A stretch of 64,000 bases of DNA. Origin: Streptomyces catenulae (GTDB lineage Bacteria; Actinomycetota; Actinomycetes; Streptomycetales; Streptomycetaceae). Positions 702-21,760 of this stretch are shown here, in pieces. The notes under the pieces are model-generated. The model was given only the letters and a program-made list of their open reading frames with translations, ran no database searches and was not told where the DNA came from. Numbering within the stretch: the first letter of the stretch is position 1; each line of letters begins with the position of its first letter. The stretch spans positions 1 to 64,000 of the forward strand of contig NZ_JODY01000027.1 in assembly GCF_000718015.1 (NCBI RefSeq). Direction: 5' to 3'. A program made the position numbers and the translations under genes.

Positions 702-2603
702 TCAGAGGGGCAGGTCGGCGTGGGGCCAGCGGGCGCGGGCCTGTTCCGGGGAGCGCATCGTGGCGAGGGTGAGCAGGCCGCGGGCCGGGTCCGTGCGGAG
801 CAGGTCCGGCAGGGCGGGCAGCGGGGCCAGGGCGGCGATGTCGTCCAGTACGAGGGTGAGCGGCGGGTCGAGGCGGCCGGTGGCGGTGCGGGCGGCGAGC
901 CGACGGGCGTGTTCGACGACGTGTGTCAGGAGCGCGGTGAGCAGGGGCATCGCGCCCGGGTCGGTGCGCGGGTCCTCCAGCGCGTCGCCGACGACGTAGA
1001 GGGTGCCGCCCTCGTCGAGGAAGGCGTCGAGGGCGAGGGTGTCGGGGCGCTGGGCGTTGCAGGCGTCGCGGATGTGGACCGAGCCGAGGGCGGACAGGGC
1101 GCGGCCCGCCAAGTCCTTCGCGCGGTCGCGGCGTTCGGGGTGGGCGGTCAGCACCGATTCCAGTTCGCCTGCCTGACCGGCGGCGCACTTCGGGTCGGTG
1201 CGCAGGATGCGGACCGGTTCCTGGGCGCCGCCGGTGGCGTGCGCCCAGCGGTGCAGCTGGCGGAAGGGGCGTCCGTCCACCGCGGCGGCGTGCAGCCAGC
1301 AGCGGAGCAGCGTCCGGGCGGCGTCGGCGACGGCCGCGTCCAGGGTGCTGTGCGGCTGTACGGGGGCGAGCAGCGCGGCGGCGCGGGTGGTGGCGGTGGC
1401 GAGGTCCTCGCAGCCGGTCGTCGGGGACCAGCGGAGCCGGGACGGGGTGTCGAGGCGGTGCGCCGGGTCGTAGGCGAGGACCGGGCCGAGCTTGGCGCGG
1501 GTGTCCTTGGTGGCCGACCAGAGCGACGGGTCGGTGGTCGCGAGGACGACGGGGCCCGGCGCGGCGGTGACGGTGGTCAGCGCGGCGGCGGTGGCGGCGG
1601 ACCGGTCGGCGCCGAAGTGCAGGCGGGGGAGGGCGGGTTCGGTGGCCGCGGTGGTGAGGGGCGCCGCGGTGGCCGCGGTGGCGGCCAGGGCGACGGCGGG
1701 GGCTTCGGCGGTGCCGGTGCCGGTGGGCGTGCTCGTGCCGGGAGTGGTGCCCGTAGGGGCGCTGAGGGCGGCTGTGGTCGGGCCGGGGAGCGTGGTGGTG
1801 GCGAGGGCGGTCGCGGCGGTGCCGGGGGTCGCGGTGCCCGTGGCGCCAAGGGCGGTGCCCGTGACGGCGGGGGCCGATTCGGCGAGGGAAGCCGGGTCGG
1901 TGGGGGCGCCGGGAGCCGTACCCGTACGGGTATCTGAGCCTGGGTCAGGGGTCGACGCGGGCCCCGGGGTCGTACCCGGAGACGGGTCAGGGATCGACGC
2001 GGGCCCCGGGGCGACAGGGGCCGGTTGTGCGGCCGGGCCCGTAGGGGGTTGTTTCGACGGGCCCGGGAGGGTTCCTGCGCGGCGGGCCCGGCGGAGGGCG
2101 CGGTAGCGGGTGAGGGTGCCCAGGGTGAAGAGGGTCAGGACCAGGAGGACCATCAGCTGGCCGACGAGGAGGCCCCAGAAGAGGCCGTAGCCGGAGAGTT
2201 GGGCCTTGGGGGTGCCGGGCCAGGCGCCGGGGAGGTCGTGGGGGTCGGTGACGAGGTGGCGCAGGGCCGTGGGGGTGCCGGAGTAGGTGACGCCGTCGGG
2301 CCAGGCGCCGTGGCTGAGGAGTCCGGCGAGGCCGGTCGCGGTCCAGATCAGGACGCTCAGACCGAGGAGGAAGAGGAGCAGCCCGATGAGCAGGGAGTCC
2401 GGGACGCCGCCGTGCTGGCGTGGGCCGCGGCCGGGCCGGGGGCCGCGTGGGCCGGGGGCGTACCGGTCGTCGTACGCCCCGGACCGCTCGTCGTACGCGC
2501 CCGGTTGGCCGCCGCGTGGGTCGTGGCCGTACGGGCCGCCGGGGGGCGCGTAGCCGTTGTCGTACGCCCCCGGGTGGCCGGTCGGGTCGGGGGGCGGGGT
2601 CAC
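702..2603 (-). CDS. VirD4/TraG-like type IV coupling protein homologue with degenerate P-loop
   Basis: 633 residues. A Pro/Gly/Tyr-rich N-terminus is followed by two membrane helices (about 71-94 and 139-163), a long Ala/Thr/Pro linker (about 180-325) and a VirD4-like domain. The segment GPVLAYDP...RLRWSPTTGCED (about 373-400) and the Walker B-like LTLVLDDIA (about 582-590) match the actinobacterial coupling-protein pattern. Where the Walker A lysine should be, the sequence reads GADRSAAT (331-338). The protein stops soon after QARARWP, where family members usually continue, so it may not hydrolyse ATP. The GTG start overlaps the stop of the upstream ATPase gene (GTGA), indicating translational coupling. 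It is the last gene of the minus-strand T4SS-like operon. Confidence 0.75.
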   Translation of the reverse strand: MTPPPDPTGHPGAYDNGYAPPGGPYGHDPRGGQPGAYDERSGAYDDRYAPGPRGPRPGRGPRQHGGVPDSLLIGLLLFLLGLSVLIWTATGLAGLLSHGAWPDGVTYSGTPTALRHLVTDPHDLPGAWPGTPKAQLSGYGLFWGLLVGQLMVLLVLTLFTLGTLTRYRALRRARRAGTLPGPSKQPPTGPAAQPAPVAPGPASIPDPSPGTTPGPASTPDPGSDTRTGTAPGAPTDPASLAESAPAVTGTALGATGTATPGTAATALATTTLPGPTTAALSAPTGTTPGTSTPTGTGTAEAPAVALAATAATAAPLTTAATEPALPRLHFGADRSAATAAALTTVTAAPGPVVLATTDPSLWSATKDTRAKLGPVLAYDPAHRLDTPSRLRWSPTTGCEDLATATTRAAALLAPVQPHSTLDAAVADAARTLLRCWLHAAAVDGRPFRQLHRWAHATGGAQEPVRILRTDPKCAAGQAGELESVLTAHPERRDRAKDLAGRALSALGSVHIRDACNAQRPDTLALDAFLDEGGTLYVVGDALEDPRTDPGAMPLLTALLTHVVEHARRLAARTATGRLDPPLTLVLDDIAALAPLPALPDLLRTDPARGLLTLATMRSPEQARARWPHADLPL

Positions 2604-4072
2604 GCCACCGTCTCGCTCGACTCGCCGTGGAGCTGGCGGGCCAGGGCCAGCGCTTCGGCGCGCTGTTCCGCCTCGGCGTCGGCGGCGGCCTCCAGGGCGC
2701 GGGCCTCGTCGGTGGGGAGGGCGGAGGCGGCGGAGACCTCGGACGCCTCGGTCATCGCGCGGTCGGTGTAGACCAGCGGGCGTTCCGCCTCGGTGATGAG
2801 GTGTTTGACGACCTGGACGTTGCCGTTGACGTCCCAGACGGCGATGCCGGGGGTCAGGGTCGGGATGATCTCGACGGCCCAGCGGGGCAGGCCGAGGACC
2901 TGGCCGGTGGCGCGGGCCTCGTCGGCTTTCTGGGCGTAGATCGTGCGGGTGGAGGCCATCTTGAGGATGGCGGCGGCCTCGCGGGCGGCGGCGCCGTCGA
3001 CGACGTCGCTGAGGTGGTGGACGACGGCGACGAAGGAGAGGCCGAGGCGGCGGCCGAACTTCAGCAGGCGCTGGAAGAGCTGCGCGACGAAGGGGGAGTT
3101 GATGATGTGCCACGCCTCCTCCACCAGGAAGATGCGCTTCTTGCGGTCCGGGCGGATCCAGGTGTGCTCCAGCCACACGCCGACGATTGCCATGAGGATC
3201 GGCATGGCGATGGAGTTGCGGTCGATGTGCGAGAGGTCGAAGACGATCAGCGGGGCGTCGAGGTCGATGCCGGCGGTCGTCGGGCCGTCGAACATGCCGC
3301 GCAGGTCACCGTCGACGAGGCGGTCGAGGACGAGGGCGACGTCCAGGCCCCATGCCCGGACATCGTCTATGTCGACATTCATCGCCTCGGCGGCCTCGGC
3401 CTCCGGGTGGCGCAGCTGCTCGACGATGTCGGTGAGGACGGGCTGGCGGGGCGCGCCGGAGTCGTCGCCTCCGTCGCCGAACTCGCCGAGGACGGTGGAG
3501 TGGGCGACCTTGAGGGCGAAGCCGGAGCGCTCGTCCAGACCGCGGCCCATCGCGACCTCGATGATCGTCCGCAGCAGCGCGAGCTGGCCGGTGGTGGTGA
3601 TCGACGGGTCGAGCGGGTTGAGGCGGATGCCGCCGTTGAGGGCGGCGGTCGGGTCGAGGCGGATGGGGGTGATGCCGAGCTGTTCGGCGATGAGATTCCA
3701 CTCGCCGACGCCGTCCTCGCCCTGTGCGTCGAGGACGACGACCTGCCGGTCGCGGAAGCGGAGCTGGCGCAGTACGTACGTCTTCTCCAGCGCGGACTTG
3801 CCGTTGCCGGACTCGCCGAGGACCAGCCAGTGCGGGGCCGGGAGCTGCTGGCCGTAGAGCTGGAAGGGGTCGTAGATGTAGCCCTTGCCGCTGTAGACCT
3901 CGCGGCCGATGATGACGCCGGAGTCACCGAGGCCGGGGGCGGCGGTGGGCAGGTAGACGGCCTGCGCCTGCCCGGTGGAGGTGCGTACGGGCAGCCGCGT
4001 CGTCTCCACCTTCCCGAACAGGAAGGTGGTGAAGGCGTCGGTGAGCGCTCCGAGCGGATCGAGCATGGCCAT
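2600..4072 (-). CDS. VirB4-like T4SS ATPase (C-terminal ATPase half)
   Basis: 490 residues with Walker A GESGNGKS (86-93), an acidic strand VVVLDAQGE after it, a Walker B-like LIVFDLSHI (about 275-283) and IFLVEEAW (about 314-321), the order seen in VirB4/TraC ATPases. It lacks the N-terminal VirB4 region, which appears to be encoded by the preceding gene. It should power assembly of, or substrate transfer through, a membrane-bound secretion machine. The ATG follows GGGAGGCG with about 10 nt spacing and lies 22 nt after the preceding stop. The 3' end overlaps the coupling-protein start. Confidence 0.88.
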   Translation of the reverse strand: MAMLDPLGALTDAFTTFLFGKVETTRLPVRTSTGQAQAVYLPTAAPGLGDSGVIIGREVYSGKGYIYDPFQLYGQQLPAPHWLVLGESGNGKSALEKTYVLRQLRFRDRQVVVLDAQGEDGVGEWNLIAEQLGITPIRLDPTAALNGGIRLNPLDPSITTTGQLALLRTIIEVAMGRGLDERSGFALKVAHSTVLGEFGDGGDDSGAPRQPVLTDIVEQLRHPEAEAAEAMNVDIDDVRAWGLDVALVLDRLVDGDLRGMFDGPTTAGIDLDAPLIVFDLSHIDRNSIAMPILMAIVGVWLEHTWIRPDRKKRIFLVEEAWHIINSPFVAQLFQRLLKFGRRLGLSFVAVVHHLSDVVDGAAAREAAAILKMASTRTIYAQKADEARATGQVLGLPRWAVEIIPTLTPGIAVWDVNGNVQVVKHLITEAERPLVYTDRAMTEASEVSAASALPTDEARALEAAADAEAEQRAEALALARQLHGESSETVA

Positions 4073-4094
4073 GACGTACGCGCCTCCCAGCGGC

Positions 4095-5654
4095 TTAGCG
4101 GCGGATTCCGGTCGCGAACGGCAGGGTGTTGACGAACGCCCGGTGGTGCTCGCGGTCGCACCACTCCAGCTTGAGATAGGACTTTCCGGCCGAGGCGCGG
4201 ATGGTGCGCTTGTCGCGGGCGAGCGCCTCGGGCGAGCGGGAGGAGACCGTCAGATAGCCGACGAGGTTGACCCCGGCGGCTCCGGAGGCGAGGTCCTCGC
4301 CGCGCTGGTCGACGCGGCCGTGGTGGGCGACGTCGCGGGGGTCGACGACGCGGTTCATCTTCGCGGCGCGGCTGGCCTCGGCGTCGTCGTTGGTCTTCTC
4401 CGTCAGCATCCGCTCGATGGCGATCTCGGTGGGCTCCAGGTCCATGCAGACCGCGACGGTGCGGATGACGTCGGGGGTGTGGACCAGCAGCGGGGCGAGG
4501 AAGTTGACGCCGACCGGGGTCAGCGGCCACTCCTTGATCCAGGCGGTGGCGTGGCACCAGGGGGCGCGGGTGGTCGACTCGCGGGTCTTGGCCTGGAGGT
4601 ACGTCGGCTCCACCGCGTCCAGCTCGGCGGGCCAGGCGTTGCGCTTGCTCATCGCCTGGATGTGGTCGATGGGGTGGTCCGGGTCGTACATGGAGTGCAC
4701 GAGGGAGGCGAGGCGGGCCTGGCCGAGCGGTTGGCGGACGCGGATGTCGGCCTCGGCGAGGCGGGCGCAGATGTCGGTCAGCTCGCGGGCCATGACGACG
4801 GCGAGACCGGCGTCGCGGTCGAGCTTGCCGCGGCCCGGACCGCCGCGCTGGGCGGCCGCGGCGCGGGCCATCGTCATCGCCTCGGCGGCCAGCTCGCGGT
4901 CGTAGTGCATACAGGCGACGAGGTAGGCGCGGTGCTGCTCGGAGGAGGTGGAGACCATCGACTGGAGCTGGTCGTACGACTCCTGGAGCCAGGCGGGGGA
5001 GGCGGTGTCGCCGCGCTGGGCGACGTCCTTGGCGTGCGCGTCCGGGTCGGCGGGCAGGGTGCGGGCCAGCATCTGGAGGCGGGTGACGAAGCCGTCACCG
5101 TTGGCGACGTGCTTGAGCAGCGTGCCGAAGCGGTCGACCAGTGCTTCCTGGTCCTCGCTGTCGCGCAGCCCGACGCCGGGGCCCTCGATCTCGATGGCGG
5201 CGGTGACGGTGCGGCGGTCGGCGTGGAGGAGGACGGCGATCTCGTCGGGGCCGAAGGGGGCGGCGAGCCAGTTGATACGGCCGATGCCGGGCGGCGGGCC
5301 GATCTCCACCTCGCGTCCGTCGAGCCGGGTGCCCGCCTCGGCGGCGGTGGAACGGTAGGCGGTGCCGCGGCGGAGGGTGCGGCGGTAGCTGCGCCGGATC
5401 TCGAACCACTTGTAGAACGTGCGGCCCTTGTACGGGACGTACACGGCGGCCAGGCCCAGCATCGGGAAGGCGGTGAGGGCGATGATCCGCATCGCCAGGA
5501 CCTTGATCGCCAGGCCGCCGACCATGCCGAGGAAGGCGCAGACGATGATCAGGGCGATCTCGCCGGTCTCGCGGTTCTTGCCGATGACGGCGTTGGGCCG
5601 GGCGCGGCCGATCAGGTACGTCCTGCGGGGCGCGATCGGATGGGGGGTGGTCAC
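4095..5654 (-). CDS. SCO6880-family protein: VirB3-like helices fused to VirB4 N-terminal-like domain
   Basis: 519 residues. Two hydrophobic helices near the N-terminus (about 32-54 and 57-75) are followed by a soluble region with alternating beta/alpha character. It has no Walker motif. This matches the family annotated in Streptomyces as SCO6880-like, and the layout (short VirB3/PrgI-like membrane part plus VirB4 N-terminal-like part) complements the ATPase encoded just downstream. GTG start with a good GGAGG upstream; the GTG overlaps the stop of the TrbL-like gene as GTGA. Its likely role is as the membrane-proximal part of the secretion ATPase complex. The domain assignment is inferred from order and topology. 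Confidence 0.8.
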   Translation of the reverse strand: MTTPHPIAPRRTYLIGRARPNAVIGKNRETGEIALIIVCAFLGMVGGLAIKVLAMRIIALTAFPMLGLAAVYVPYKGRTFYKWFEIRRSYRRTLRRGTAYRSTAAEAGTRLDGREVEIGPPPGIGRINWLAAPFGPDEIAVLLHADRRTVTAAIEIEGPGVGLRDSEDQEALVDRFGTLLKHVANGDGFVTRLQMLARTLPADPDAHAKDVAQRGDTASPAWLQESYDQLQSMVSTSSEQHRAYLVACMHYDRELAAEAMTMARAAAAQRGGPGRGKLDRDAGLAVVMARELTDICARLAEADIRVRQPLGQARLASLVHSMYDPDHPIDHIQAMSKRNAWPAELDAVEPTYLQAKTRESTTRAPWCHATAWIKEWPLTPVGVNFLAPLLVHTPDVIRTVAVCMDLEPTEIAIERMLTEKTNDDAEASRAAKMNRVVDPRDVAHHGRVDQRGEDLASGAAGVNLVGYLTVSSRSPEALARDKRTIRASAGKSYLKLEWCDREHHRAFVNTLPFATGIRR

Positions 5655-6940
5655 CGCCCCTCACCTCCTGCTGACTTGCCGGTGCGGGAGCCGCCGGGGG
5701 CGCCGGAGCCGGGGTTGGTACGGGGGGCCGGTGGGGCGGTGCGGGAGCTGTGGGCGGCGACGCCGCCGGCCACGCCGCCCGCCGGGGACTGGCCGCCGCC
5801 GCTCTGGGACTGGCCGCCGCCGTCGGACTTGCGGCTGCTGTGGGTCTTGATGCCCTGGGAGACGAGGGCGGCGGGGGAGGAGACCATGGCGGCCGCCTGA
5901 CTGCCGTCGGTGGCGCGCCCCTTGTTCGTCCGCGCGGAGACCATCTCGTCGCCGAAGCCGGGGACGAAGCGGTAGATCACCGCGCTGGCGAAGATCGCGA
6001 GGACGATGATGGCGAGGCCGGAGACGACGGCGGAGAAGGCGTTGGGGCCCTCGTCGGAGGAGAGCGCACCGGCGATGCCGAGGACGATCACGATCACCGG
6101 TTTCACCATGATCACCGCGATCATGATCCCGGCCCAGCGGCGGACGTGGCCCCACATGTTCTTGTCGACGAGCCCGGCGTAGACGACGGTGCCGAGCAGC
6201 GCGCCGACGTACAGCAGCGCGGCGCGGATCACCAACTCCAGCCAGAGCACACCGGCGGCGAGCACCGAGACCAGCGAGACGACGATCAGCATGATCGGGC
6301 CGCCGCCGATGTCGGTGCCCTTGGTCAGCGCCGCGGAGAACGCCCCGAAGAAGGTGTCGGTCTTCGCCCCGGTGCCCTTCGCGATGATCTCGGTGATGCT
6401 GTCGGTCGCGGAGACCACGGTGTAGAGGATCAGCGGCGTGAACGCGGAGGCGAGCACGGTCAGCCAGAGGAACCCGACCGCCTCGCTGATCGCCTCCGTC
6501 AGCCGGACACCCCGCACGGCGCGCTTGGCGACGGCGAGCAGCCACAGGACGAGGGTGAGGACGGTCGAGGCGGCGAAGACGACGGCGTACTGGCGCAGGA
6601 ACGCGGAGTTGGTGAAGTCGACCTGCGAGGTCGCCTTCACGGCGTCGGCCAGCTTGTCGACGATCCAGGCGGCGGCCTTGGCACAGCCCTTGGCGAGGGA
6701 GGTGAGGGGGTCCAGGGGGTTGTTGTCGAACGGGGTGCTCGGTGTCGTGCTGCCGCTGCCCGGTGCGTTCTGTTCGCAGTTCTCCTTGGCAGGGCCGCTG
6801 AGGATGCTGCAGCGTTCCCTTGTCGGTGACGGATCGGGGCCGGGGGCGGCCATGACGCGGGTGGCGCACATGAACACCGCGGTCTGAACCGCGGCGAGAA
6901 CCGAGACGACCGAGAACGCGCGGCGGCTGTTACCGGGCAT
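5651..6940 (-). CDS. VirB6/TrbL-like polytopic membrane protein
   Basis: 429 residues. An N-terminal signal-like segment (RRAFSVVSVLAAVQTAVFMCATRV) is followed by a Cys-containing extracellular loop and then five or six hydrophobic helices (for example AVVFAASTVLTLVLWLLAVA and LIVVSLVSVLAAGVLWLELV). The tail is a disordered Gly/Ser/Gln/Ala-rich stretch. This is the topology of TrbL/VirB6 channel components of type IV systems. The start chosen is ATG at 6940 with GGAGGG 7 nt upstream; the frame is open to 7009 but would overlap the previous gene more. It overlaps the upstream gene by 11 nt and the downstream gene by 4 nt, so the operon is tight. Confidence 0.83.
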   Translation of the reverse strand: MPGNSRRAFSVVSVLAAVQTAVFMCATRVMAAPGPDPSPTRERCSILSGPAKENCEQNAPGSGSTTPSTPFDNNPLDPLTSLAKGCAKAAAWIVDKLADAVKATSQVDFTNSAFLRQYAVVFAASTVLTLVLWLLAVAKRAVRGVRLTEAISEAVGFLWLTVLASAFTPLILYTVVSATDSITEIIAKGTGAKTDTFFGAFSAALTKGTDIGGGPIMLIVVSLVSVLAAGVLWLELVIRAALLYVGALLGTVVYAGLVDKNMWGHVRRWAGIMIAVIMVKPVIVIVLGIAGALSSDEGPNAFSAVVSGLAIIVLAIFASAVIYRFVPGFGDEMVSARTNKGRATDGSQAAAMVSSPAALVSQGIKTHSSRKSDGGGQSQSGGGQSPAGGVAGGVAAHSSRTAPPAPRTNPGSGAPGGSRTGKSAGGEGR

Positions 6941-7775
6941 AGGTGAACCCTCCAAACCCTTCGACCGCACCTGCGATCTCCTTCGCTCCGGATGCGGGGA
7001 CGTCCCCACTGACCGGTGCCGGGCCGTTCTTCTGCGTCTGGGAAACGGCCTTCCAGTCCTTGCCGGTCCAGGTCAGCTTCATCGTGACGGTGAACCACGT
7101 GGTGGTCACCGGCTTGGTGGAGCCGCTGCCCGCCATGCCGAGGAGCCCCGTGCACCACACGTCGACGGTGGCCCCGTCGTCGGCGTAGGCCGTGGCCTTG
7201 GTGCCGATGGGGATGGTGCGGGAGATGAAGGTCATGCCCGAGGGGACGCTGCCGTCCGGCTTCAGGCCGACGGCCTTGCGGGCGTCGGACGTGTAGGCGT
7301 GGTCGAGATCCTTCTGGAACGTGCCGACGACGGAAGGCGCCATGACCGCGCTGACGATCTGGTGGCGCTTCTGGTCGTCGAACATGTCGGAGGATCCCAG
7401 CGCCACCGCATAATTCGCCGCCGCCGACTGCGCCCCCTGCTGGGTCTTGGCGAAGCCCTTGGCGATGGTGCCGTTCTTGTCCGTCACCGGGTCGGTGCCG
7501 GTGGGGGCGGTGGGTTGGGCGGCGGGGCCGTTCTTGGGGGCGCCGTCCGCGGTGTCGGTGGCGGGGTCGGAGCCGGAGCCGCGGTTGGCGAAGGCGATGG
7601 CGGCGATGAGGAGGACCACCACACCGACGACGGCGACGAGGTTGCGGCTGGAGAGCCCGGAGCGGGAGCGGCGCCCCGATCCGTAGGTGTCGCCCTCGCT
7701 CTCCGGAAGTCTGGTGCGGGTCTGGCCGGTGGGACTCGTGTAGTCGCCGCCGTAGCCGTCGTCGCTGGTACTCAT
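6930..7775 (-). CDS. VirB8/TcpC-like single-pass conjugal transfer protein
   Basis: 281 residues: a hydrophilic N-terminal tail (1-45), one membrane helix (about 46-64, NLVAVVGVVVLLIAAIAF), a Pro/Thr linker, and an extracytoplasmic domain of about 180 residues. Domain size and topology fit the VirB8/TcpC (NTF2-like) scaffold of Gram-positive type IV systems, but I see no diagnostic motif, so the family is inferred from position. ATG start preceded by GAGGGGG. It is the first gene of the 702-7775 block and is separated from the pilin gene by about 550 nt. Confidence 0.7.
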   Translation of the reverse strand: MSTSDDGYGGDYTSPTGQTRTRLPESEGDTYGSGRRSRSGLSSRNLVAVVGVVVLLIAAIAFANRGSGSDPATDTADGAPKNGPAAQPTAPTGTDPVTDKNGTIAKGFAKTQQGAQSAAANYAVALGSSDMFDDQKRHQIVSAVMAPSVVGTFQKDLDHAYTSDARKAVGLKPDGSVPSGMTFISRTIPIGTKATAYADDGATVDVWCTGLLGMAGSGSTKPVTTTWFTVTMKLTWTGKDWKAVSQTQKNGPAPVSGDVPASGAKEIAGAVEGFGGFTYAR

Positions 7776-8275
7776 CGCGTACGTGCCCCCTCAACCGCCA
7801 TTGCCGTCTCCGCCGTCGTCGCCGTCCCCGCCGTTGTGGGGCCGCCCTCGTATGACCGTAGCCGCGCGGTTGGCGGCTCGGGTGAAGTGGTACGAGTACA
7901 TCTCACCGTGACGGGTCCTCAGCTGCTGGGCGGTGTGGGTGAATGGGAGACTGTGCGGCTTTTATCCCCTTGGTGTGCACCCGCTTCACCGCCTCCCGCC
8001 GTGGCCTTCTTCCTTCCGGACGGACCTGTCCCCACGGGGTGGCCGCCCCAACCGGTCCGCTGGTCGCGGGCGTGCCGGGGTGGACCGGGAGTCCGGCCGT
8101 GCAGGGGTGAGCGGACGTCAGCATGGGGCCTCGGCGCGGGAGGTGGGGCCGTCGGGGGGTGGATGGAGGCACAGGGGCGGCGGACGGGGCGCATGCGGTG
8201 GGCGCCGGTGGCGGTCCGGCCCGGGGCGCGGCGCGCGGCGGGGGCCGCGGGGCCTGCGCGGTGGGGGAGGTGACG
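7776..8275. other. Intergenic region, no convincing gene
   Basis: About 500 bases between the VirB8-like gene and the pilin terminator. Open frames here are short, Pro/Arg-rich and lack ribosome binding sites, so I see no gene. Because the operon downstream on the minus strand begins at 7775, this stretch presumably carries its promoter, but I cannot point to a clear -10/-35. Confidence 0.5.
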
Positions 8276-8309
8276 GCCCGTCGGCCGCCGGGAGGGGCGG
8301 CCGACGGGC
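8276..8309 (-). terminator. Hairpin terminator after pilin-like gene
   Basis: A perfect 14-bp GC-rich inverted repeat (8276-8289 and 8296-8309) with a 6-base loop lies 12 nt after the stop of the pilin-like gene. There is no T-run, as is common in Streptomyces. It would separate highly expressed pilin mRNA from the rest of the cluster. Confidence 0.7.
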
Positions 8310-8321
8310 GTCGAGGGCGCG

Positions 8322-8639
8322 CTACACGGCCATGCCGTAGACGATCGTGAAGAGGGTGCCGAGGGAGCCGATGATGAAGACGCCGGTGAGACCGGCGACG
8401 ATCAGGCCCTTGCCCTGCTCGGCGCTGAAGGTGTCGCGGAGCGCGGTGGCGCCGATCCGCTGCTTGGCGGCGCCCCAGAAGGCGATGCCCAGGCAGATCA
8501 GGATCGCGACGGCCATGATGACCTCGACCATCACGCGCGCCTCGTGGCCCAGCGTGCCGAACGGGCCCCAGTCCGGGGCGATTCCACCGATGATGGTGCT
8601 GATGTCGCCCTTGTCGGCCGCAATGAACATTGAACTCAC
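8322..8639 (-). CDS. VirB2-like small membrane protein (putative pilin)
   Basis: Up to 105 residues with two hydrophobic helices (about 37-55, VMVEVIMAVAILICLGIAFW, and about 79-101, LIVAGLTGVFIIGSLGTLFTIVYG) separated by a short basic/polar loop. That is the size and hairpin topology of VirB2/TraA-type pilins, although there is no long cleaved leader. The frame can start at GTG 8639 or ATG 8630; an AAAGGGG site precedes both, and its spacing fits the ATG slightly better. It has its own terminator and a long upstream control region, suggesting separate, possibly stronger, expression than the rest of the cluster. Confidence 0.72.
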   Translation of the reverse strand: MSSMFIAADKGDISTIIGGIAPDWGPFGTLGHEARVMVEVIMAVAILICLGIAFWGAAKQRIGATALRDTFSAEQGKGLIVAGLTGVFIIGSLGTLFTIVYGMAV

Positions 8640-8808
8640 CGCCCCTTTATGGGTAGTTGTGGTCCCCTGAATATCTGACAGGGGTCAGTCTCCATCTTCG
8701 CCGACAAAGACACCACCGGATGTCGACTTGGCGGCATTCTTGCGCGGATCTCGTAGGGGTGGGGTGAGGATCGGCCCTGCGACGACCGGCGTCACCCGGG
8801 AAACCCGT

Positions 8809-8838
8809 GTGATGTCACTGTGTGTATCACGTATGATA
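8809..8838. promoter_or_regulatory. Overlapping inverted repeats, possible operator
   Basis: GTGAT (8809-8813) pairs with ATCAC (8826-8830), and TATCA (8825-8829) pairs with TGATA (8834-8838) around a CGTA centre. The A/T-rich palindromic character stands out against the GC-rich surroundings and lies between the iterated repeats and the pilin-like gene. An operator role is inferred. Confidence 0.45.
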
Positions 8839-8861
8839 ACCGTGAGCAATGATGGAGTGAA

Positions 8862-8922
8862 GTCCATCGATGCGTCCATCGATGCGTCCATCAAATGCGT
8901 CCATCAATGCGTCTATCGATAC
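8862..8922. repeat. Five tandem copies of a 12-bp GTCCATCGATGC iteron
   Basis: Copies begin at 8862, 8874, 8886 (13 nt variant), 8899 and 8911. The first two are identical and the others carry one or two changes (GTCCATCAAATGC, GTCCATCAATGC, GTCTATCGATAC). Helical-phase spacing and position in the divergent promoter region suggest an array for a DNA-binding regulator; a decayed replication or transfer iteron is the alternative. Confidence 0.85.
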
Positions 8923-9286
8923 GGGGTGTCCGGTGTGCTCGGCGCGGGGGGCCGTGGGTGGGCCGGGTGGGAGCCGAGGTGGGGGCGTCGGGGCAGGTCC
9001 GGGGGTGTGCGTCCCTCCCGGGAGGAGGGACGCGGGGCGGGACCGGGTGGTTCCGTTTCGCACCGTCAGGGATCCGGCCGTCGGCGGCTGTCGACCGGCG
9101 GGCGTCCGGGCCGTGGGGCGGCGCCCGGGGCTCAGGCGGTGCCGGGTGCGCCGGTAGCCTCTCGGCCGTACGCCGCTCCCCGGTGAGCGCCCCCTGCGCC
9201 GAGGTGTGCGCCGCCGTGCGGTGGGAACTTCCAGGGGTGGCGGGGAATCGGCGGCGAAGTGGGCCCGGATGGGGGAGGGTTGAGGC

Positions 9287-10294
9287 GTGCGGAAACTCTG
9301 GATTGCAGGCGGTATCGGGGCGGGGCTGATGCTCGGCCTGATCGCGCTGCTCGTGATCGGCACGTACACCGCGGCCGCCGGGCTGGTCGGTGGGGCCGGC
9401 GGGCGGGCGCTCGGGCTGGCCAAGGGCGCGGTGCCCGCCGAGTACCAGGCGCTGGTGCAGAAGTGGGGTCAGCTCTGCCCGGCGATAAGCCCCTCGTTGC
9501 TGGCCGCGCAGCTCTACCAGGAGAGCGGCTGGAACCCCAAGGCGCAGAGCCCGGCGAACGCGCTGGGCATGGCGCAGTTCATCCCCGGCACCTGGGCCAC
9601 CCACGGCATCGACGGCAACGGCGACGGCAAGAAGGACATCTGGGATCCGGCGGACGCCATCGCGTCGGCCGCGTCGTACGACTGTGAGCTGGCGCAGTAC
9701 GTGAAGGACGCCCCGGGCGACGCCACGCACAACATGCTCGCCGCGTACAACGCCGGTGCCTACCGCGTCATCCAGTACAGCGGCGTGCCGCCCTACGGTG
9801 AGACGCAGAACTACGTCAAGACGATCACCACGCTCGCCAAGAGCTTCGAGGCGCCGACCGCGCCGGTCGCCCCGTCGAAGCAGGCCGCCGCGGCGATCTA
9901 CTACGCGCAGGCGAAGCTCGGCACGCCGTATCTGTGGGGCGGTACGGGCACCGCGGCGCAGAACGGCCGGTTCGACTGCTCCGGGCTGACACAGGCCGCG
10001 TACCGCTCGGTCGGCATAGAGCTGCCGCGGGTGGCGAACGACCAGTGGAACGCCGGTCCGCACCCCAAGCGCGATGAGCTGCTCCCCGGCGATCTGGTCT
10101 TCTTCGCCAACGATCTGACGGACCCGCGGTCGATCCACCACGTCGGGATCTACGTCGGCGGCGGCTACATGGTCAACGCGCCGCACACCGGCGCGCTGAT
10201 CCGCTTCGACAAGATCGATGTGCCGGACTACATCGGCGCCACCCGCGTCACCTCCGATGGCGCGAAAGCGCTGCCCGCTGCGAACACCGCGTGA
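9287..10294 (+). CDS. Bifunctional lytic transglycosylase / C40 (NlpC/P60) peptidase, VirB1-like
   Basis: 335 residues. An N-terminal membrane anchor or signal (about 5-27) is followed by a soluble lytic transglycosylase domain with catalytic Glu in LYQESGWNP (E79) and the NALGMAQFIPGTW motif. A C-terminal NlpC/P60 domain has Cys in RFDCSGLT (C231) and His in IHHVGIY (H285). The first domain cleaves glycan strands of peptidoglycan and the second the peptide stems, opening the wall for a secretion apparatus. It is divergent from the pilin gene and is the natural VirB1 partner of the cluster. GTG start at 9287. Both active sites look intact. Confidence 0.9.
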   Translation: MRKLWIAGGIGAGLMLGLIALLVIGTYTAAAGLVGGAGGRALGLAKGAVPAEYQALVQKWGQLCPAISPSLLAAQLYQESGWNPKAQSPANALGMAQFIPGTWATHGIDGNGDGKKDIWDPADAIASAASYDCELAQYVKDAPGDATHNMLAAYNAGAYRVIQYSGVPPYGETQNYVKTITTLAKSFEAPTAPVAPSKQAAAAIYYAQAKLGTPYLWGGTGTAAQNGRFDCSGLTQAAYRSVGIELPRVANDQWNAGPHPKRDELLPGDLVFFANDLTDPRSIHHVGIYVGGGYMVNAPHTGALIRFDKIDVPDYIGATRVTSDGAKALPAANTA

Positions 10295-16202: not shown

Positions 16203-17201
16203 ATGGACACCTTCGCGCTCGTCGTGACCATCGCGGTCGCGCTCGGTTTCACATATACCAACGGCTTTCACGACTCGGCGAACGCCATCGCCACCTCGGT
16301 GTCGACCCGGGCGCTGACGCCACGGGCGGCGCTGGCGATGGCCGCCGTGATGAACCTCGCCGGTGCCTTTCTGGGCAGCGGGGTCGCCAAGACGGTCAGC
16401 GAGGGGCTGATCTCCACGCCCGAGGGCAGCAAGGGGATGGGGATCCTGTTCGCCGCGCTGCTGGGCGCGGTGGTCTGGAACCTCGTCACCTGGTACTTCG
16501 GACTGCCGTCGTCCTCCTCCCACGCACTCTTCGGCGGCATGGTCGGCGCGGCGCTCGCGGGGGGCACCGAGGTGATCTGGGCCGGGGTGATCGAGAAGGT
16601 CGTCCTGCCGATGTTCATCTCGCCGATCATCGGCCTGGTGCTCGGCTATCTGGTGATGGTCGTCATCCTCTGGCTGTTCCGCGGCGCCAATCCGCACCGT
16701 GCCAAGCGGGGCTTCCGCATAGCGCAGACCGTCTCGGCGGCGGGCATGGCGCTCGGCCACGGTCTCCAGGACGCGCAGAAGACCATGGGTGTCGTGGTGA
16801 TGGCGCTGGTCATCGCCGATGTCCAGGACGCCAGCGCGGCCATCCCGGTCTGGGTGAAGCTGGTCTGTGCGATCACGCTGTCGCTCGGTACGTACGCGGG
16901 TGGCTGGCGGATCATGCGGACGCTGGGGCGGCGGATCATCGAGCTGGACCCGCCGCAGGGCTTCGCCGCGGAGACCACGGCGGCTTCGGTGATGTACACC
17001 GCGTCGTTCATGTTCCACGCGCCGATCTCCACCACGCACGTCATCACCTCCGCGATCATGGGTGTGGGCTCGACCAAGGGTCCGCGCGCGGTGCGCTGGG
17101 GCGTCGCCAAGAACATCGTGATGGGCTGGTTCATCACGATGCCGGCGGCGGCGCTCGTGGCCGCGGCCGCCTACTGGGTGATCAAGCTGGCCTTCGGCTG
17201 A
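16203..17201 (+). CDS. pitH: Low-affinity inorganic phosphate transporter, Pit family
   Basis: 332 residues with about nine or ten membrane helices. The family signatures are present: FTYTNGFHDSANAIATSV near the N-terminus, PSSSSHALFGG in the middle, and HAPISTTHVITSAIMGVG in the second half. It imports phosphate (probably as a metal-phosphate complex) using proton motive force. It is in an operon with the DUF47 gene and convergent with the high-affinity pst operon, so both phosphate uptake modes sit together. A strong terminator follows. Confidence 0.93.
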   Translation: MDTFALVVTIAVALGFTYTNGFHDSANAIATSVSTRALTPRAALAMAAVMNLAGAFLGSGVAKTVSEGLISTPEGSKGMGILFAALLGAVVWNLVTWYFGLPSSSSHALFGGMVGAALAGGTEVIWAGVIEKVVLPMFISPIIGLVLGYLVMVVILWLFRGANPHRAKRGFRIAQTVSAAGMALGHGLQDAQKTMGVVVMALVIADVQDASAAIPVWVKLVCAITLSLGTYAGGWRIMRTLGRRIIELDPPQGFAAETTAASVMYTASFMFHAPISTTHVITSAIMGVGSTKGPRAVRWGVAKNIVMGWFITMPAAALVAAAAYWVIKLAFG

Positions 17202-17240
17202 CCCGCGCCGGGCCCCTGCCCGGCGCACCCGTACGAAGGA

Positions 17241-17273
17241 AAGGGCCCGCCCCCGATGTGGGGGCGGGCCCTT
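17241..17273. terminator. Bidirectional terminator between pit and pstB
   Basis: A perfect 14-bp stem (17241-17254 and 17260-17273), AAGGGCCCGCCCCC and its complement, with a 5-base loop, located between convergent operons. Confidence 0.85.
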
Positions 17274-17336
17274 CGTCGTGCGGTGGCACCGCCATGCAGC
17301 ACCGCAGGACGCGGGTGGGGCCGCCGGGCGGGCGGC

Positions 17337-18113
17337 TCAGCCGAAGCGGCCGGAGATGTAGTCCTCGGTCGCCTGGACGGACGGGTTGGAGAAGATCCGC
17401 TCGGTGTCGTCGATCTCGACGAGGGTGCCGGGCTGCCCGACGGCCGAGAGGTTGAAGAACGCCGTACGGTCCGAGACGCGCGCCGCCTGCTGCATGTTGT
17501 GCGTCACGATGACGATCGTGAAGCGCTCCTTCAGCTCGCCGATGAGGTCCTCGACGGCGAGCGTGGAGATCGGGTCCAGCGCGGAGCAGGGTTCGTCCAT
17601 GAGCAGGACCTGCGGTTCGACGGCGATGGCGCGGGCGATGCACAGGCGCTGCTGCTGGCCGCCGGAGAGGCCGGAGCCGGGCTTGTTGAGGCGGTCCTTG
17701 ACCTCGTTCCAGAGGTTGGCGCCCTTGAGGGACCGCTCGACGATGTCGGTGAGATCGCTCTTCTTCGTGGTGCCGTTGAGCCGCAGCCCGGCCGCGACGT
17801 TGTCGAAGATCGACATCGTGGGGAACGGGTTGGGCCGCTGGAAGACCATGCCGACGGTGCGGCGGACCGCGACCGGGTCGACGCCGGGGCCGTAGAGGTC
17901 CTCGTCGTCCAGGAGCACCTTGCCCTCGACGCGGCCGCCGGGGGTGACCTCGTGCATCCGGTTCAGGGTGCGCAGGAAGGTCGACTTGCCGCAGCCGGAG
18001 GGGCCGATGAAGGCGGTCACCGAGCGGGGCTCGACGCTCATGGAGATGTCGTCGATGGCCTTGTGGTTGCCGTAGAAGGCGGAGAGGCCGCTGACATCGA
18101 TTCGCTTGGCCAT
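17337..18113 (-). CDS. pstB: Phosphate ABC transporter ATP-binding protein PstB
   Basis: 258 residues from the ATG at 18113 (MAKRIDVSG); a GTG three codons upstream is possible. Walker A is GPSGCGKST, the Q-loop follows in [14 protein letters not shown], the ABC signature is LSGGQQQR, Walker B is [13 protein letters not shown], and the switch His is in VTHNMQQ. The PNPFP motif is characteristic of PstB. It hydrolyses ATP to drive high-affinity phosphate import with PstA and PstC. It is the last gene of pstSCAB. Confidence 0.97.
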
Positions 18114-18143
18114 GGGGATCACTGCTTCTTTCTGGGGACGCGG

Positions 18144-19229
18144 TCAGCGGCCGGTTTTGGGGGCCTTCCAGCGGGCGATGCCGCGGGCCACCAGGTTGAG
18201 GATCATCACGAAGGCGATGAGGACGAGGGCCGCGGCCCAGGCGCGGTCGTACGACGCCTCGGAGCCCTGCTGCCACTGCTGGAAGACGTAGAGCGGCAGG
18301 GACTGCTGGGCGTCCTGGAACGGGTTGTTGTTGATCGTCTTCGCGCCCCACACCAGCAGCATGACCGGCGCGGTCTCACCGGTGATCCGGGCGACGGCCA
18401 GCATCACGCCGGTGGTGATGCCGCCGATCGACGTCGGCAGGACGACCTTGAGGATGGTGCGCCACTTCGGCACGCCCAGGGCCAGCGACGCCTCGCGCAG
18501 CTCGTTGGGGACGAGCTTGAGCATCTCCTCGGTGGAGCGGACGACGACCGGGACCATCAAGATCGCCAGCGCCATCGACCCGGCGAAGCCGGACGGGCCG
18601 AAGCCGAGGATCAGGATCCAGACGGAGAGGATGAAGAGTCCGGCGACGATGGACGGGATGCCGGTCATCACGTCGACGAAGAAGGTGACGGCCTTGGCGA
18701 GCCGTCCGCGGCCGTACTCGACCAGGTAGATCGCGGTGAACAGGCCGAGCGGCGCGGCGATCAGGGTGGCCAGGCCCACCTGCTCCAGGGTGCCGATGAT
18801 CGCGTGGTAGATGCCGCCGCCGGGCAGCGCGTCCGGCAGGGTGCCCATCGAGTGGGAGAGGAAGTAGCCGTCCAGGACCTTGCTGCCGCGGACGACCGTC
18901 TCCCACAGCAGGGAGGCCAGCGGGATGACGGCGAGCAGGAAGGCCATCCAGACGAGGCCGGTGGCGAGGCGGTCCTTGGCCTGCCGGGCGCCTTCGACGG
19001 CGGCGGACAGCACGAAGGTGGCGACCACGAAGACCAGCGCGGCGATCAGACCCCACTGGATACGGCTGTCCAGACCGGCGCCGAGGCCGATGCCGCAGCC
19101 GATCGCGGCCGAGGCGAGGGCGAGGGCCGCCGGGGTCCAGCGGGGGAGCCGGGCCTGCTTGAGGGAGAGGCTCGACACGCCGCCGGGCCGCTCGGCGAGG
19201 GCCTGCCGTTCCGTCATGACGTCGCTCAC
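18144..19229 (-). CDS. pstA: Phosphate ABC transporter permease PstA
   Basis: 361 residues with an N-terminal hydrophilic stretch and about eight membrane helices. The ABC permease coupling segment is seen as ELREASLALGVPKWRTILKVVLP (read in two parts), typical of PstA. The GTG at 19229 was chosen because it overlaps the pstC stop as GTGA and has AAGGAG 5 nt before it; an in-frame ATG lies four codons further in. It forms the phosphate channel with PstC. Confidence 0.95.
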   Translation of the reverse strand: MSDVMTERQALAERPGGVSSLSLKQARLPRWTPAALALASAAIGCGIGLGAGLDSRIQWGLIAALVFVVATFVLSAAVEGARQAKDRLATGLVWMAFLLAVIPLASLLWETVVRGSKVLDGYFLSHSMGTLPDALPGGGIYHAIIGTLEQVGLATLIAAPLGLFTAIYLVEYGRGRLAKAVTFFVDVMTGIPSIVAGLFILSVWILILGFGPSGFAGSMALAILMVPVVVRSTEEMLKLVPNELREASLALGVPKWRTILKVVLPTSIGGITTGVMLAVARITGETAPVMLLVWGAKTINNNPFQDAQQSLPLYVFQQWQQGSEASYDRAWAAALVLIAFVMILNLVARGIARWKAPKTGR

Positions 19230-20215
19230 GAGTACTCCTTGCGCCGGGCGATGATCAGGCGGGCCGCGCCGTTGACGAGCAGGGTGATCACGAAGAGGAC
19301 GAGGCCCGAGGCGATCAGTGCGTCCTGGCCGAAGGTGTCGGCCTCGCTGAACTTCGCGGCGATGTTCTGCGCGAAGGTGCCGCCGCCCGGGTCGAGCAGG
19401 CTGGTGTTGATCAGGAAGCTGGGGGAGAGGACGGTGGCGACGGCCATCGTCTCGCCGAGCGCCCGGCCCAGGCCCAGCATGGAGGCGCTGATGATGCCGG
19501 AGCGGCCGAAGGGGAGGACCGACATCCGGATGACCTCCCAGCGGGTGGCGCCGAGCGCCAGGGCCGCCTCCTCGTGCATCCTCGGCGCCTGGAGGAAGAC
19601 CTCGCGGCTGACGCTGGTGACGATCGGCAGGATCATGATCGCCAGCAGGATGCCGACGGTGAACAGCGAGCGGGCGGCGCCGCCGCCGTAGCTGAAGACG
19701 CCGGTCCAGCCGAGGTAGTCGTCGAGCCAGCCGTAGAGCCCGCCGAGGTGCGGGACGAGGAAGAGCGCGCCCCACAGGCCGTAGATGATGCTGGGCACCG
19801 CGGCGAGCAGGTCGATGACGTAGCCGAGCGGGGAGGCCAGCCTGCGGGGGGCGTAGTGCGAGATGAAGAGGGCGATGCCGACCGCGACCGGGACCGCGAT
19901 GACCATCGCGATCAGGGCGCTGACGACGGTGCCGAACGCCAGGACCGCGATGCCGAATTTGGGCTCGGTGCCGGTGGCGTTCCAGTCGAGGGTGGTGAAG
20001 AAGTTGGCGTGGTCGCCGGATATCGCGAGCACGGACCGGTAGGTGAGGAAGGCGGCGATGGCCGCCATGATCACCAGGAGGGCGATACCGGATCCGCGGG
20101 AGAGCCCGAGGAAGATCCGGTCGCCGGGGCGCCGGGCCTTCCCCGAGACGGCGGAGTCGGGGGCCGCGGCCGGTGGCGGCGCGGCGTCAGGTGTCGCGGT
20201 TGCTGAGGGGGTCAT
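19226..20215 (-). CDS. pstC: Phosphate ABC transporter permease PstC
   Basis: 329 residues. A Pro/Ala-rich N-terminal tail is followed by about six membrane helices and the coupling helix EEAALALGATRWEVIRMSVLP. The LLAAVPSIIYGLWG segment is typical of PstC. ATG at 20215 has GGAG 7 nt upstream; the frame is open further up but without a site. It is coupled to pstA by a GTGA overlap and follows pstS by about 117 nt. Confidence 0.95.
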   Translation of the reverse strand: MTPSATATPDAAPPPAAAPDSAVSGKARRPGDRIFLGLSRGSGIALLVIMAAIAAFLTYRSVLAISGDHANFFTTLDWNATGTEPKFGIAVLAFGTVVSALIAMVIAVPVAVGIALFISHYAPRRLASPLGYVIDLLAAVPSIIYGLWGALFLVPHLGGLYGWLDDYLGWTGVFSYGGGAARSLFTVGILLAIMILPIVTSVSREVFLQAPRMHEEAALALGATRWEVIRMSVLPFGRSGIISASMLGLGRALGETMAVATVLSPSFLINTSLLDPGGGTFAQNIAAKFSEADTFGQDALIASGLVLFVITLLVNGAARLIIARRKEYS

Positions 20216-20332
20216 GGTTTCTCCGGTCTGCGGAGCCCGGGGGCTCCTGGCGCGGCGGTGCACCGGACGGGCGGCGGCCGGGGGCCGTACGGCGGGGTGA
20301 CCCGGCCGTACGGCGGGCCGCCGCCCGGTGGA

Positions 20333-21457
20333 TCAGGCGAGGGCGGCGACGGTCTTGCGGACCTTGTCGGCGATCTCGGTGGGCAGCGGGGCGTAGCCCA
20401 GGTCCTTCAGGGCGTTCTGGCCGTCCTCGCTGGCGATGTAGGTGAGGAAGGACTTGGTGGCCGGGAGGGTCTCGGTCTTGTTGCCCTTGTCGCAGGCGAT
20501 CTCGTACGTCACCAGGGTGATCGGGTAGGCGCCCTCGGCCTTGGTGGCGTAGTTCAGCTCCAGGGCGAGGTCGTCGCCCTTGCCGACCTGCTTGGCCTCG
20601 GCGATGGCCTTGGAGGCGTTGTCGACGGTGGCCTCGACCGGGGACTTGGCGCCGGTGGCGATCTTGACGGTGGGGATCTTCCCGGCCGTCGCGTAGGACA
20701 GCTCGAAGTAGGAGATCGCGCCGTTGGTCTGCTTGACCTGCGAGGAGACACCGGCGGAGCCGGAGGCCGCCTGGCCGCCCTTGCCCTCCCAGGTCTTCGC
20801 GGGCTCGTGCTTCCAGGCGTCGGGGGCGGCGCCCTTGAGGTACTTGGTGAAGTTGTCGGTGGTGCCCGAGTCGTCGGAGCGGTGGAACGCCTGGATCTTG
20901 AGGTCCGGCAGCGAGGCGCCCGGGTTGAGCTTCTTGATCGCCGCGTCGTTCCAGTTGGTGATCTGCGAGTCGAAGATCTTGGCGAGGGTGGGCGCGTCGA
21001 GGACGAGGTTGTCCACGCCGGGCACGTTGTAGCCGACCGCGATCGGGCCGCCGACCATCGGCAGGTTGATCGCCTTGCCGCCCTTGCAGACCTTCTCCGA
21101 CTTGGCGACCTCCTCGGGCTTGAGGGCCGAGTCGGAACCGGCGAACGCGGTCTGGCCCTGGAGGAAGGTGGTGATGCCCGCGCCGGAGCCGGTCGGCTGG
21201 TAGTTGATCTCGGTGTCCTTGCAGGACCCGGCGTAGTTCTGCACCCAGACGTCCATGGCGTTCTTCTGCGCCGAGGAGCCGGAGGCGCGCAGCTTGCCCT
21301 TGCCCTCGCACTTGATGCTGCCGGTCTTGGCGGCGTTGCCCGCGCCACCGGAGGCGCTGGTGTCGTCGGAGCCGCACGCCGTCAGGGCCAGGGCACCGGT
21401 GACGGCGAGAGCGCCCACCGCGAGGGCGCGAACCCGGTTCTTGCGCTGAAGCTTCAC
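20333..21457 (-). CDS. pstS: Phosphate-binding lipoprotein PstS
   Basis: 374 residues. The signal peptide ends in lipobox LTAC (Cys 28). The phosphate-binding PstS features are visible: ASGSSAQKNAM, QPTGSGAGI, FAGSDSAL and FHRSDDSGTTDNF. It captures phosphate outside the membrane and delivers it to PstCA. GTG start at 21457 with AAGGAA upstream. A PHO box about 150 bp upstream indicates PhoP-dependent induction under phosphate starvation. It is the first and presumably the most strongly expressed gene of the operon. Confidence 0.97.
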   Translation of the reverse strand: MKLQRKNRVRALAVGALAVTGALALTACGSDDTSASGGAGNAAKTGSIKCEGKGKLRASGSSAQKNAMDVWVQNYAGSCKDTEINYQPTGSGAGITTFLQGQTAFAGSDSALKPEEVAKSEKVCKGGKAINLPMVGGPIAVGYNVPGVDNLVLDAPTLAKIFDSQITNWNDAAIKKLNPGASLPDLKIQAFHRSDDSGTTDNFTKYLKGAAPDAWKHEPAKTWEGKGGQAASGSAGVSSQVKQTNGAISYFELSYATAGKIPTVKIATGAKSPVEATVDNASKAIAEAKQVGKGDDLALELNYATKAEGAYPITLVTYEIACDKGNKTETLPATKSFLTYIASEDGQNALKDLGYAPLPTEIADKVRKTVAALA

Positions 21458-21592
21458 TGTCGAGAGTTCCTTCCTGGGGCGCGCCGCTTGCTCGGCGTGC
21501 GAGGTGTGTCAGGAGTGTGCGGAGTCAGCCGGAGCCCCTATCGGTTCGCGACGGTGACGCGCACTCGGTACGGCCGAAATTAGGCAGATCAA

Positions 21593-21631
21593 GTGAAGTG
21601 ACCGACGGAGAAGAGTGAACGCACGGTGAAC
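21593..21631 (-). promoter_or_regulatory. PHO box of pstS (PhoP direct repeats)
   Basis: On the minus strand GTTCACCGTGC (21631-21621) is followed directly by GTTCACTCTTC (21620-21610), two adjacent 11-bp units matching the Streptomyces PhoP consensus. A third, out-of-phase GGTCACTTCAC lies at 21603-21593. The array may also affect the divergent NlpC/P60 gene. Confidence 0.88.
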
Positions 21632-21760
21632 CTCACCCGTCAGCTGGGGGCGACTCGTCCTGGCATGTATCGGTCACGCGAAATCGGGGAATTGCCCCGT
21701 CCTCTGTCGACTTACCGATCGGTATGGCACTATCCGCGCCAACGACCACGGGGAGACGAA

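Follow-up and report, generated by a model that had tools for sequence, protein, structure and literature searches.

The cmd operon of Streptomyces as a candidate domesticated conjugation machine with a degenerate or lost coupling protein

The closest described counterpart of the locus analysed here is the Streptomyces coelicolor operon cmdABCDEF (SCO4126-4131) together with tgdA (SCO4132), whose gene content and order are the same as in our window, i.e., the whole 64,000-nucleotide stretch of Streptomyces catenulae DNA under study. The cmd genes are co-transcribed, and the cmdB transcript rises during aerial growth (Xie et al., 2009; PMC2782261). In S. coelicolor, loss of cmdA-F harms aerial growth, sporulation and the segregation of chromosomes; mutants lacking cmdB or cmdA-F show late aerial mycelium, extra branches and short spore chains, with 8% or 6% anucleate spores vs 0.1% (PMC2782261). 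Likewise, the S. lividans and S. avermitilis deletions impair sporulation (PMC2782261). Among the single mutants, deletion of cmdA causes no apparent sporulation defect, whereas the other deletions give light grey colonies (PMC2782261). The conserved lysines K90 and K404 of CmdB are needed, unless the changes destabilised the protein, and transfer of an SLP2-derived plasmid was the same in the cmdA-F deletion (authors' data not shown; PMC2782261). Deletion of cmdB, cmdD, cmdE or the whole cmdA-F set increases blue pigment, which is not the case for cmdA, cmdC or cmdF; the cmdC and cmdF deletions make little or no blue pigment (PMC2782261). Such differences among single deletions speak against the envelope reading favored below. 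Additionally, a transposon screen lists cmdBCDEF and tgdA, but not cmdA, among the genes whose mutants show a similar increase of actinorhodin (PMC6585502), and the title of a 2013 paper cited there concerns SCO4132 and differentiation.

Several other systems bear on the locus. The SCO6880-type T4SSs of actinobacterial ICEs and plasmids, e.g., one on contig C20 of the same S. catenulae genome and one on pMDJK44.2, have homologous parts in the same order as Cmd, but in both of these examples the coupling protein has GK[S/T] and the contig or plasmid encodes a relaxase as well; Cmd has neither feature. According to the 2009 paper, plasmid SLP2 carries three related genes, and null mutants of SCO6878 and SCO6881 show no phenotype of the cmd kind (PMC2782261). 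Bordetella Ptl, Brucella VirB, Helicobacter pylori ComB and Bartonella Trw consist of a VirB core without a coupling protein (PMC12857230); these four systems come from Gram-negative bacteria and are directed at hosts, the milieu or external DNA, whereas Cmd belongs to the core genome of monoderms and is linked with development. The VirD4-less systems named in section 20 of this review are from Gram-negatives only, and the review does not mention cmdA, cmdB or sporulation (PMC12857230). Finally, the Streptomyces TraB/FtsK proteins share with Cmd a motor that takes part in DNA movement or segregation in the mycelium. The FtsK-like TraB acts independently of other known T4SS subunits (PMC12857230), unlike CmdB, which is a VirB4-type ATPase within a T4SS-like operon.

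In the window, positions 702-10294 hold six minus-strand genes and one divergent plus-strand gene, arranged as cmdF-E-D-C-B-A plus tgdA, and all of the T4SS-like parts that an earlier note on this DNA had named were found there, with matches beyond chance (SCO6880 family, 1.7e-53; AAA_10, 2.5e-10; NlpC/P60, 3.7e-24). By protein families and gene order, rather than by comparison with the SCO sequences, the cluster is the counterpart of the published operon cmdABCDEF with the wall-hydrolase gene tgdA; the match could be fixed because the 2009 paper likens SCO6878, SCO6880 and SCO6881 to cmdB, cmdC and cmdD (PMC2782261). The cmdB gene (2600-4072, minus strand) encodes the C-terminal motor half of VirB4, with the P-loop GESGNGKS, the motif VEEAW and a match to Pfam AAA_10; the matches to TraC/VirB4 NCBIfam models (9.4e-11 to 2.9e-7) are all far below the full-length cut-offs. 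Of the two published lysines, K90 probably belongs to Walker A, and its equivalent in the window is then K92. The cmdC gene (4095-5654, minus strand) encodes a SCO6880-family protein (NCBIfam NF042935) that is probably VirB3 joined to the N-terminal half of VirB4: plasmid relatives match PrgI at 0.006 and 0.02, under the cut-off, and in one case a VirB4 model at 0.0022. Its predicted structure (AF2) has a mean pLDDT of 40 and is unusable. The weakest assignment is that of cmdD (5651-6940, minus strand) as a VirB6-like membrane protein, with a match to the SCO6881 family at 5.8e-5, under its cut-off, and a plasmid counterpart that matches TrbL_4 at 0.031, also under the cut-off. Thus, CmdC and CmdD are placed tentatively, by weak matches.

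The product of cmdE (6930-7775, minus strand) combines a probable membrane helix (residues 44-63) with an NTF2-like domain in a VirB8-like fold, and cmdF (8322-8639, minus strand) encodes a very conserved small membrane protein, putatively VirB2/TrbC-like. CmdF is homologous to small proteins of plasmid and ICE T4SS loci (hhalign probability 99.4, E 2.7e-21), one of which matches DUF6112 at 1.1e-5 and TrbC/VIRB2 at 0.0027, the latter under the cut-off. The divergent tgdA (9287-10294, plus strand), counterpart of SCO4132, encodes a VirB1-like protein with an SLT transglycosylase (9.9e-18) and an NlpC/P60 peptidase domain. The intergenic region between cmdF and tgdA contains a 12-bp tandem repeat (8862-8920; TRF) whose core occurs in at most one copy in all 59 relatives examined, and the cmdF and tgdA matches lie 235 to 3627 bp apart (59 loci). 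Sequence searches of the PDB with profiles of CmdB, CmdA and CmdC gave nothing usable; the CmdA profile reached ATP synthase b at 0.016, in its helical part only, and TrwB at about 0.3.

The remaining gene, cmdA (702-2603, minus strand), probably starts with a GTG at 2603 that overlaps the cmdB stop; the analyses ran on 702-2591. It had been read as VirD4-like, which needs one correction: CmdA aligns with 11 plasmid and ICE coupling proteins over 468 columns (hhalign probability 100, E 3.5e-66; TraG-D_C at 0.021, under the cut-off), and it is catalytically degenerate, with the P-loop GADRSAATA, DD instead of DE in Walker B and a short C-terminus. The same holds across the 59 sequences compared, i.e., the window and 58 of 80 named loci (19 of the others have no ATPase-like CmdA domain and three are cut by contig ends). 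GK[S/T] is present in one of the 59 CmdA sequences vs 9 of 11 plasmid/ICE relatives, the letters GK in the P-loop stretch in 5/59 vs 11/11, and Walker B DE in none of the 59 vs all 11, DD being found in 50. C-terminal tails have a median length of 9 residues (range 2-79), compared with 115-146 in the 11 relatives. The sole CmdA with GK[S/T] is that of Wenjunlia tyrosinilytica (L181), with a full GSPGTGKS, and a family-f49 protein has GKA and an 87-residue tail; both look like intermediates. Given the GK letters in five sequences and the GKA of f49, nucleotide binding by CmdA may persist in places.

In other lineages cmdA is missing. It is absent from 11/11 g150 loci, from all 19 named loci nearest to g150, which are Kitasatospora and its kin and overlap the former set, and from 10/10 loci of family f50; in none of them does the 3-kb stretch following cmdB (2 kb in one locus) contain masked bases. 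The g151 locus L081 also lacks CmdA, yet 1137 of the 3000 bases after its cmdB are masked, and it was left out of the loss count. In agreement with these absences, tblastn with 11 CmdA variants gave no match in 41 cmdA-less loci, L081 among them. Additionally, only the N-terminal membrane part of CmdA is left in 3/3 g138 and 3/3 g141 loci; in the four genomes of these two genera that were searched whole, weak similarity to CmdA continues beyond a stop codon. Judged by its motifs and its absences, CmdA is thus an ATPase either dead or lost. No description of it as a degenerate coupling protein was found in the literature searched (titles and abstract starts, with most subscription papers outside), nor does the available part of the 2009 paper contain one (PMC2782261). 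What is new here is the loss of the coupling motor; the gene cluster itself was already known.

The motor CmdB shows the opposite pattern, with P-loop and VEEAW both present in 58/58 family loci; among plasmid/ICE homologs, GxxxxGK[S/T] is absent from one of nine (L135), and plasmid L134 has no CmdB match. Median dN/dS, taken over the 20 closest of 34 disjoint pairs (dS 0.05-1.5; for CmdA 11 pairs, matched part), is 0.06 for CmdB, 0.065 for CmdF, 0.10 for CmdC, 0.17 for CmdA, 0.21 for TgdA, 0.29 for CmdD and 0.35 for CmdE. Given its low value, CmdA is, where present, kept under selection as a pseudo-enzyme and not rotting. Of the parts of a monoderm T4SS core, Cmd has a VirB4 ATPase with intact P-loop, a VirB8-like protein and a VirB1-like wall hydrolase, with candidates for the VirB2-, VirB3- and VirB6-like parts, and lacks a catalytically intact VirD4, a usual T4SS part that is absent from some T4SSs.

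As the earlier note had suggested, the cluster is conserved in Streptomyces: CmdB orthologs at E <= 1e-250 occur in 196/199 genomes, the window's own included. This threshold is not reached in G127 and G177, where CmdC is present at full strength, and in G139, a 1010-contig assembly where CmdC was not found. Within the family, CmdC was detected in 296 of 297 genomes and in all 17 genera, the sole genome without a match (G687) being 71% complete; G744 carries a frameshift, and G643 (76% complete) yields fragments. CmdC was also found in 119/119 sampled genomes of the order, including 15 that belong to two further families (70-75% identity). Of 394 sampled across the class, 109 matched at E <= 1e-30, 40 within the genus and 69 outside; among the latter, only G205 is ortholog-like (78%), the other 68 reaching at most 38%. 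G205 (970 contigs, 6% contamination) carries cmdB-F, tgdA, csoR and pit-type genes together, and the operon may be older than the order, or this contig may be contamination.

In the CmdB tree, 58 chromosomal rows stand apart from nine plasmid/ICE rows (support 91/87), and groups g1, g150, g139, g141 and g147 are whole, g143 is split, and g138 and g152 are without resolution; since the chromosomal rows separate and most groups are whole, the tree fits vertical descent. The gene set likewise recurs. In the 71 named loci whose upstream sequence exceeds 6.5 kb, cmdC, D and E are present in all 71, cmdF in 70 and tgdA, within the fetched flank, in 59; in the fetched stretches of 38 family-sample loci, cmdB-E are present in all 38, cmdF in 36, tgdA in 30 and csoR or pit in 15. 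Beyond cmdA, 6/6 loci examined have an rRNA operon (23S and 5S genes), with the 5S gene 432-5306 bases past cmdA. The contig stops at the left edge of the window, which would be explained by such an rRNA operon adjoining there, as in relatives.

The flanking genes are of the housekeeping type that had been proposed (GNAT, PAP2, FAD oxidoreductase, CsoR-type, PhoU-like, Pit, ABC ATPase and a phosphate-binding-type protein), plus one probable lipoprotein without a Pfam match. No integrase was seen at the cluster, and searches for two relaxase families found TrwC (PF08751) nowhere in the genome and a single PF03432 match on another contig, C20. This latter contig provides an internal control: its T4SS (19-31 kb) has the same order of parts as cmd, a coupling protein with APRSGKT and the PF03432 relaxase at 43 kb, so that detection failure does not account for the parts that cmd lacks. 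Nor do presence and position vary between strains, as would be expected of a conjugative element (119/119 genomes, common neighbours). The earlier note had named a relaxase close by or a mobile-element boundary as evidence against a cellular role; neither relaxase family lies nearby, no boundary was seen, and the cluster is conserved across the order in a common neighbourhood. Its guess of a cellular, non-conjugative job, sporulation included, is borne out by the published knock-outs (PMC2782261) and was right, although largely in print since 2009.

Collectively, we lean towards Cmd being a domesticated, VirB4-driven envelope machine that is coupling-free, i.e., without a substrate-loading motor. 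On this reading, cmdABCDEF-tgdA would go back to a conjugation-type T4SS whose domestication took place in the ancestor of the Streptomyces order or earlier. TgdA would open peptidoglycan locally, CmdC, D, E and F would make up a platform in the membrane that bears a VirB2-like ring or a short fibre, and ATPase cycles of CmdB, the putative sole power source, would assemble or move this platform at its site of work, the envelope of young aerial hyphae. With no coupling ATPase to feed it cytoplasmic substrates, Cmd could serve as an envelope-remodelling or anchoring assembly, the segregation defects would result from faulty growth and septation of aerial hyphae, and degenerate CmdA, where kept, could be a non-catalytic accessory. 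The same genes would also fit a channel; nothing that we found supports secretion or transfer of anything by Cmd.

One channel of this kind would be a DNA pump in which CmdB, much as FtsK/SpoIIIE, drives chromosomal DNA into the spore compartments; the 2009 authors themselves proposed to investigate whether a type IV-like channel translocates chromosomes or plasmids (PMC2782261). The excess of anucleate spores and the authors' PHYRE model, which places CmdB on RecA/FtsK motors, speak for such a pump (PMC2782261), as does the grouping of VirB4 ATPases with SpoIIIE/FtsK/HerA (PMC12857230). However, more than 90% of the mutant spores are not anucleate, and the defects begin at aerial growth, ahead of septation (PMC2782261). 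Additionally, the pump would be served by neither a working coupling ATPase nor a relaxase of the two families searched, and the review treats direct substrate recruitment by VirB4 as not shown (PMC12857230), which together make this reading rather unlikely.

We hold it to be similarly doubtful that Cmd is a protein exporter without a coupling protein, a VirB4-driven machine that moves on Sec or Tat cargo as two-step Ptl does. Streptomyces has no outer membrane, a second export step would be less needed, and no obvious cargo gene lies among the neighbours examined. On the other hand, the Cmd parts match a secretion core, two-step VirD4-less T4SSs are known in Gram-negatives, and protease secretion has been reported for one Gram-positive T4SS, which has VirD4 (PMC12857230).

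It seems very improbable that an unlinked T4SS lends Cmd its intact coupling protein: VirD4-like genes unlinked to cmd do occur in 8/10 f50 and 2/11 g150 genomes, but 9/11 g150 genomes have no VirD4-like match at E <= 1e-5 (64 first-look candidates scored per genome), and in the seven of eight such f50 genomes that were inspected, the gene is part of another T4SS, which has a VirB4-like gene of its own. In these seven genomes the genes, which have intact P-loops, are for the same reason not a moved cmdA. That cmd is a decaying or defective ICE, as the lack of a visible integrase and of the two relaxase families might suggest, is hardly credible given its retention in all 119 genomes of the order, the low dN/dS, the common neighbourhood and the knock-out phenotype (PMC2782261). 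An origin of Cmd from relaxase-free linear-plasmid systems was also considered and rejected: the three linear plasmids examined, taken from the closest CmdB relatives ranking below record H1, each carry two copies of TrwC, one towards each end, with PF03432 in 0/5 records.

On balance, then, we favor with some reserve an order-wide domesticated conjugation machine, VirB4-only, in which the DNA-loading motor would have been switched off and then dropped several times, and which would build or drive an envelope structure needed for aerial growth and orderly sporulation. If true, a VirB4-driven core would be useful on its own inside the producing cell, and Cmd would be a monoderm T4SS free of a coupling protein that acts on its own maker cell. 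Kitasatospora represents a natural cmdA deletion, and programs that look for ICEs may misclassify a core developmental operon as a defective one.

Type IV secretion systems (T4SSs) distinct from cmd are found both in the window's own genome and in a related family. Contig C20 of the same Streptomyces catenulae genome carries an ICE-like element at 12-52 kb (L087/L088), separate from cmd, which combines a SCO6880-type T4SS with an intact coupling protein and a relaxase; an integrase-like gene, judged by eye, lies at ~12.1-13.2 kb. In f50, a family of the same order whose cmd loci lack cmdA, all seven genomes inspected (L230, L231, L233-L237) encode a second T4SS that is unlinked to cmd and has its own VirB4-like gene and an intact VirD4 gene. 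Many orthologs of the VirD4-like CmdA, e.g., P0121, are named "type VI secretion protein" in public records, a name that is misleading.

Within the cmd locus of the window, a 12-bp tandem repeat of ~4.8 copies occupies positions 8862-8920, between the divergent cmdF and tgdA genes; in each of 59 relatives, the core of this repeat occurred once at most. In Streptomyces sp. ICBB 8177 (G596; L073/L183), the 7-9 kb next to cmdB-E yielded neither cmdF nor tgdA even though the contig continues, possibly reflecting a rearrangement. Additionally, cmdC is split by a frameshift, either real or a sequencing error, in a 99% complete Streptomyces genome (G744, L086).

Related systems also reside on plasmids. 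Close CmdB relatives (46-49%) are encoded on giant linear plasmids (L109, L110, L136 and their records), each carrying two TrwC-type relaxase genes, one towards either end; PLSDB nevertheless classes these plasmids as non-mobilizable. On plasmid pMDJK44.2 (L112), the T4SS genes are followed by a 5.5-kb DUF6531 gene (16579-22089), whose product is a possible cargo of that system.
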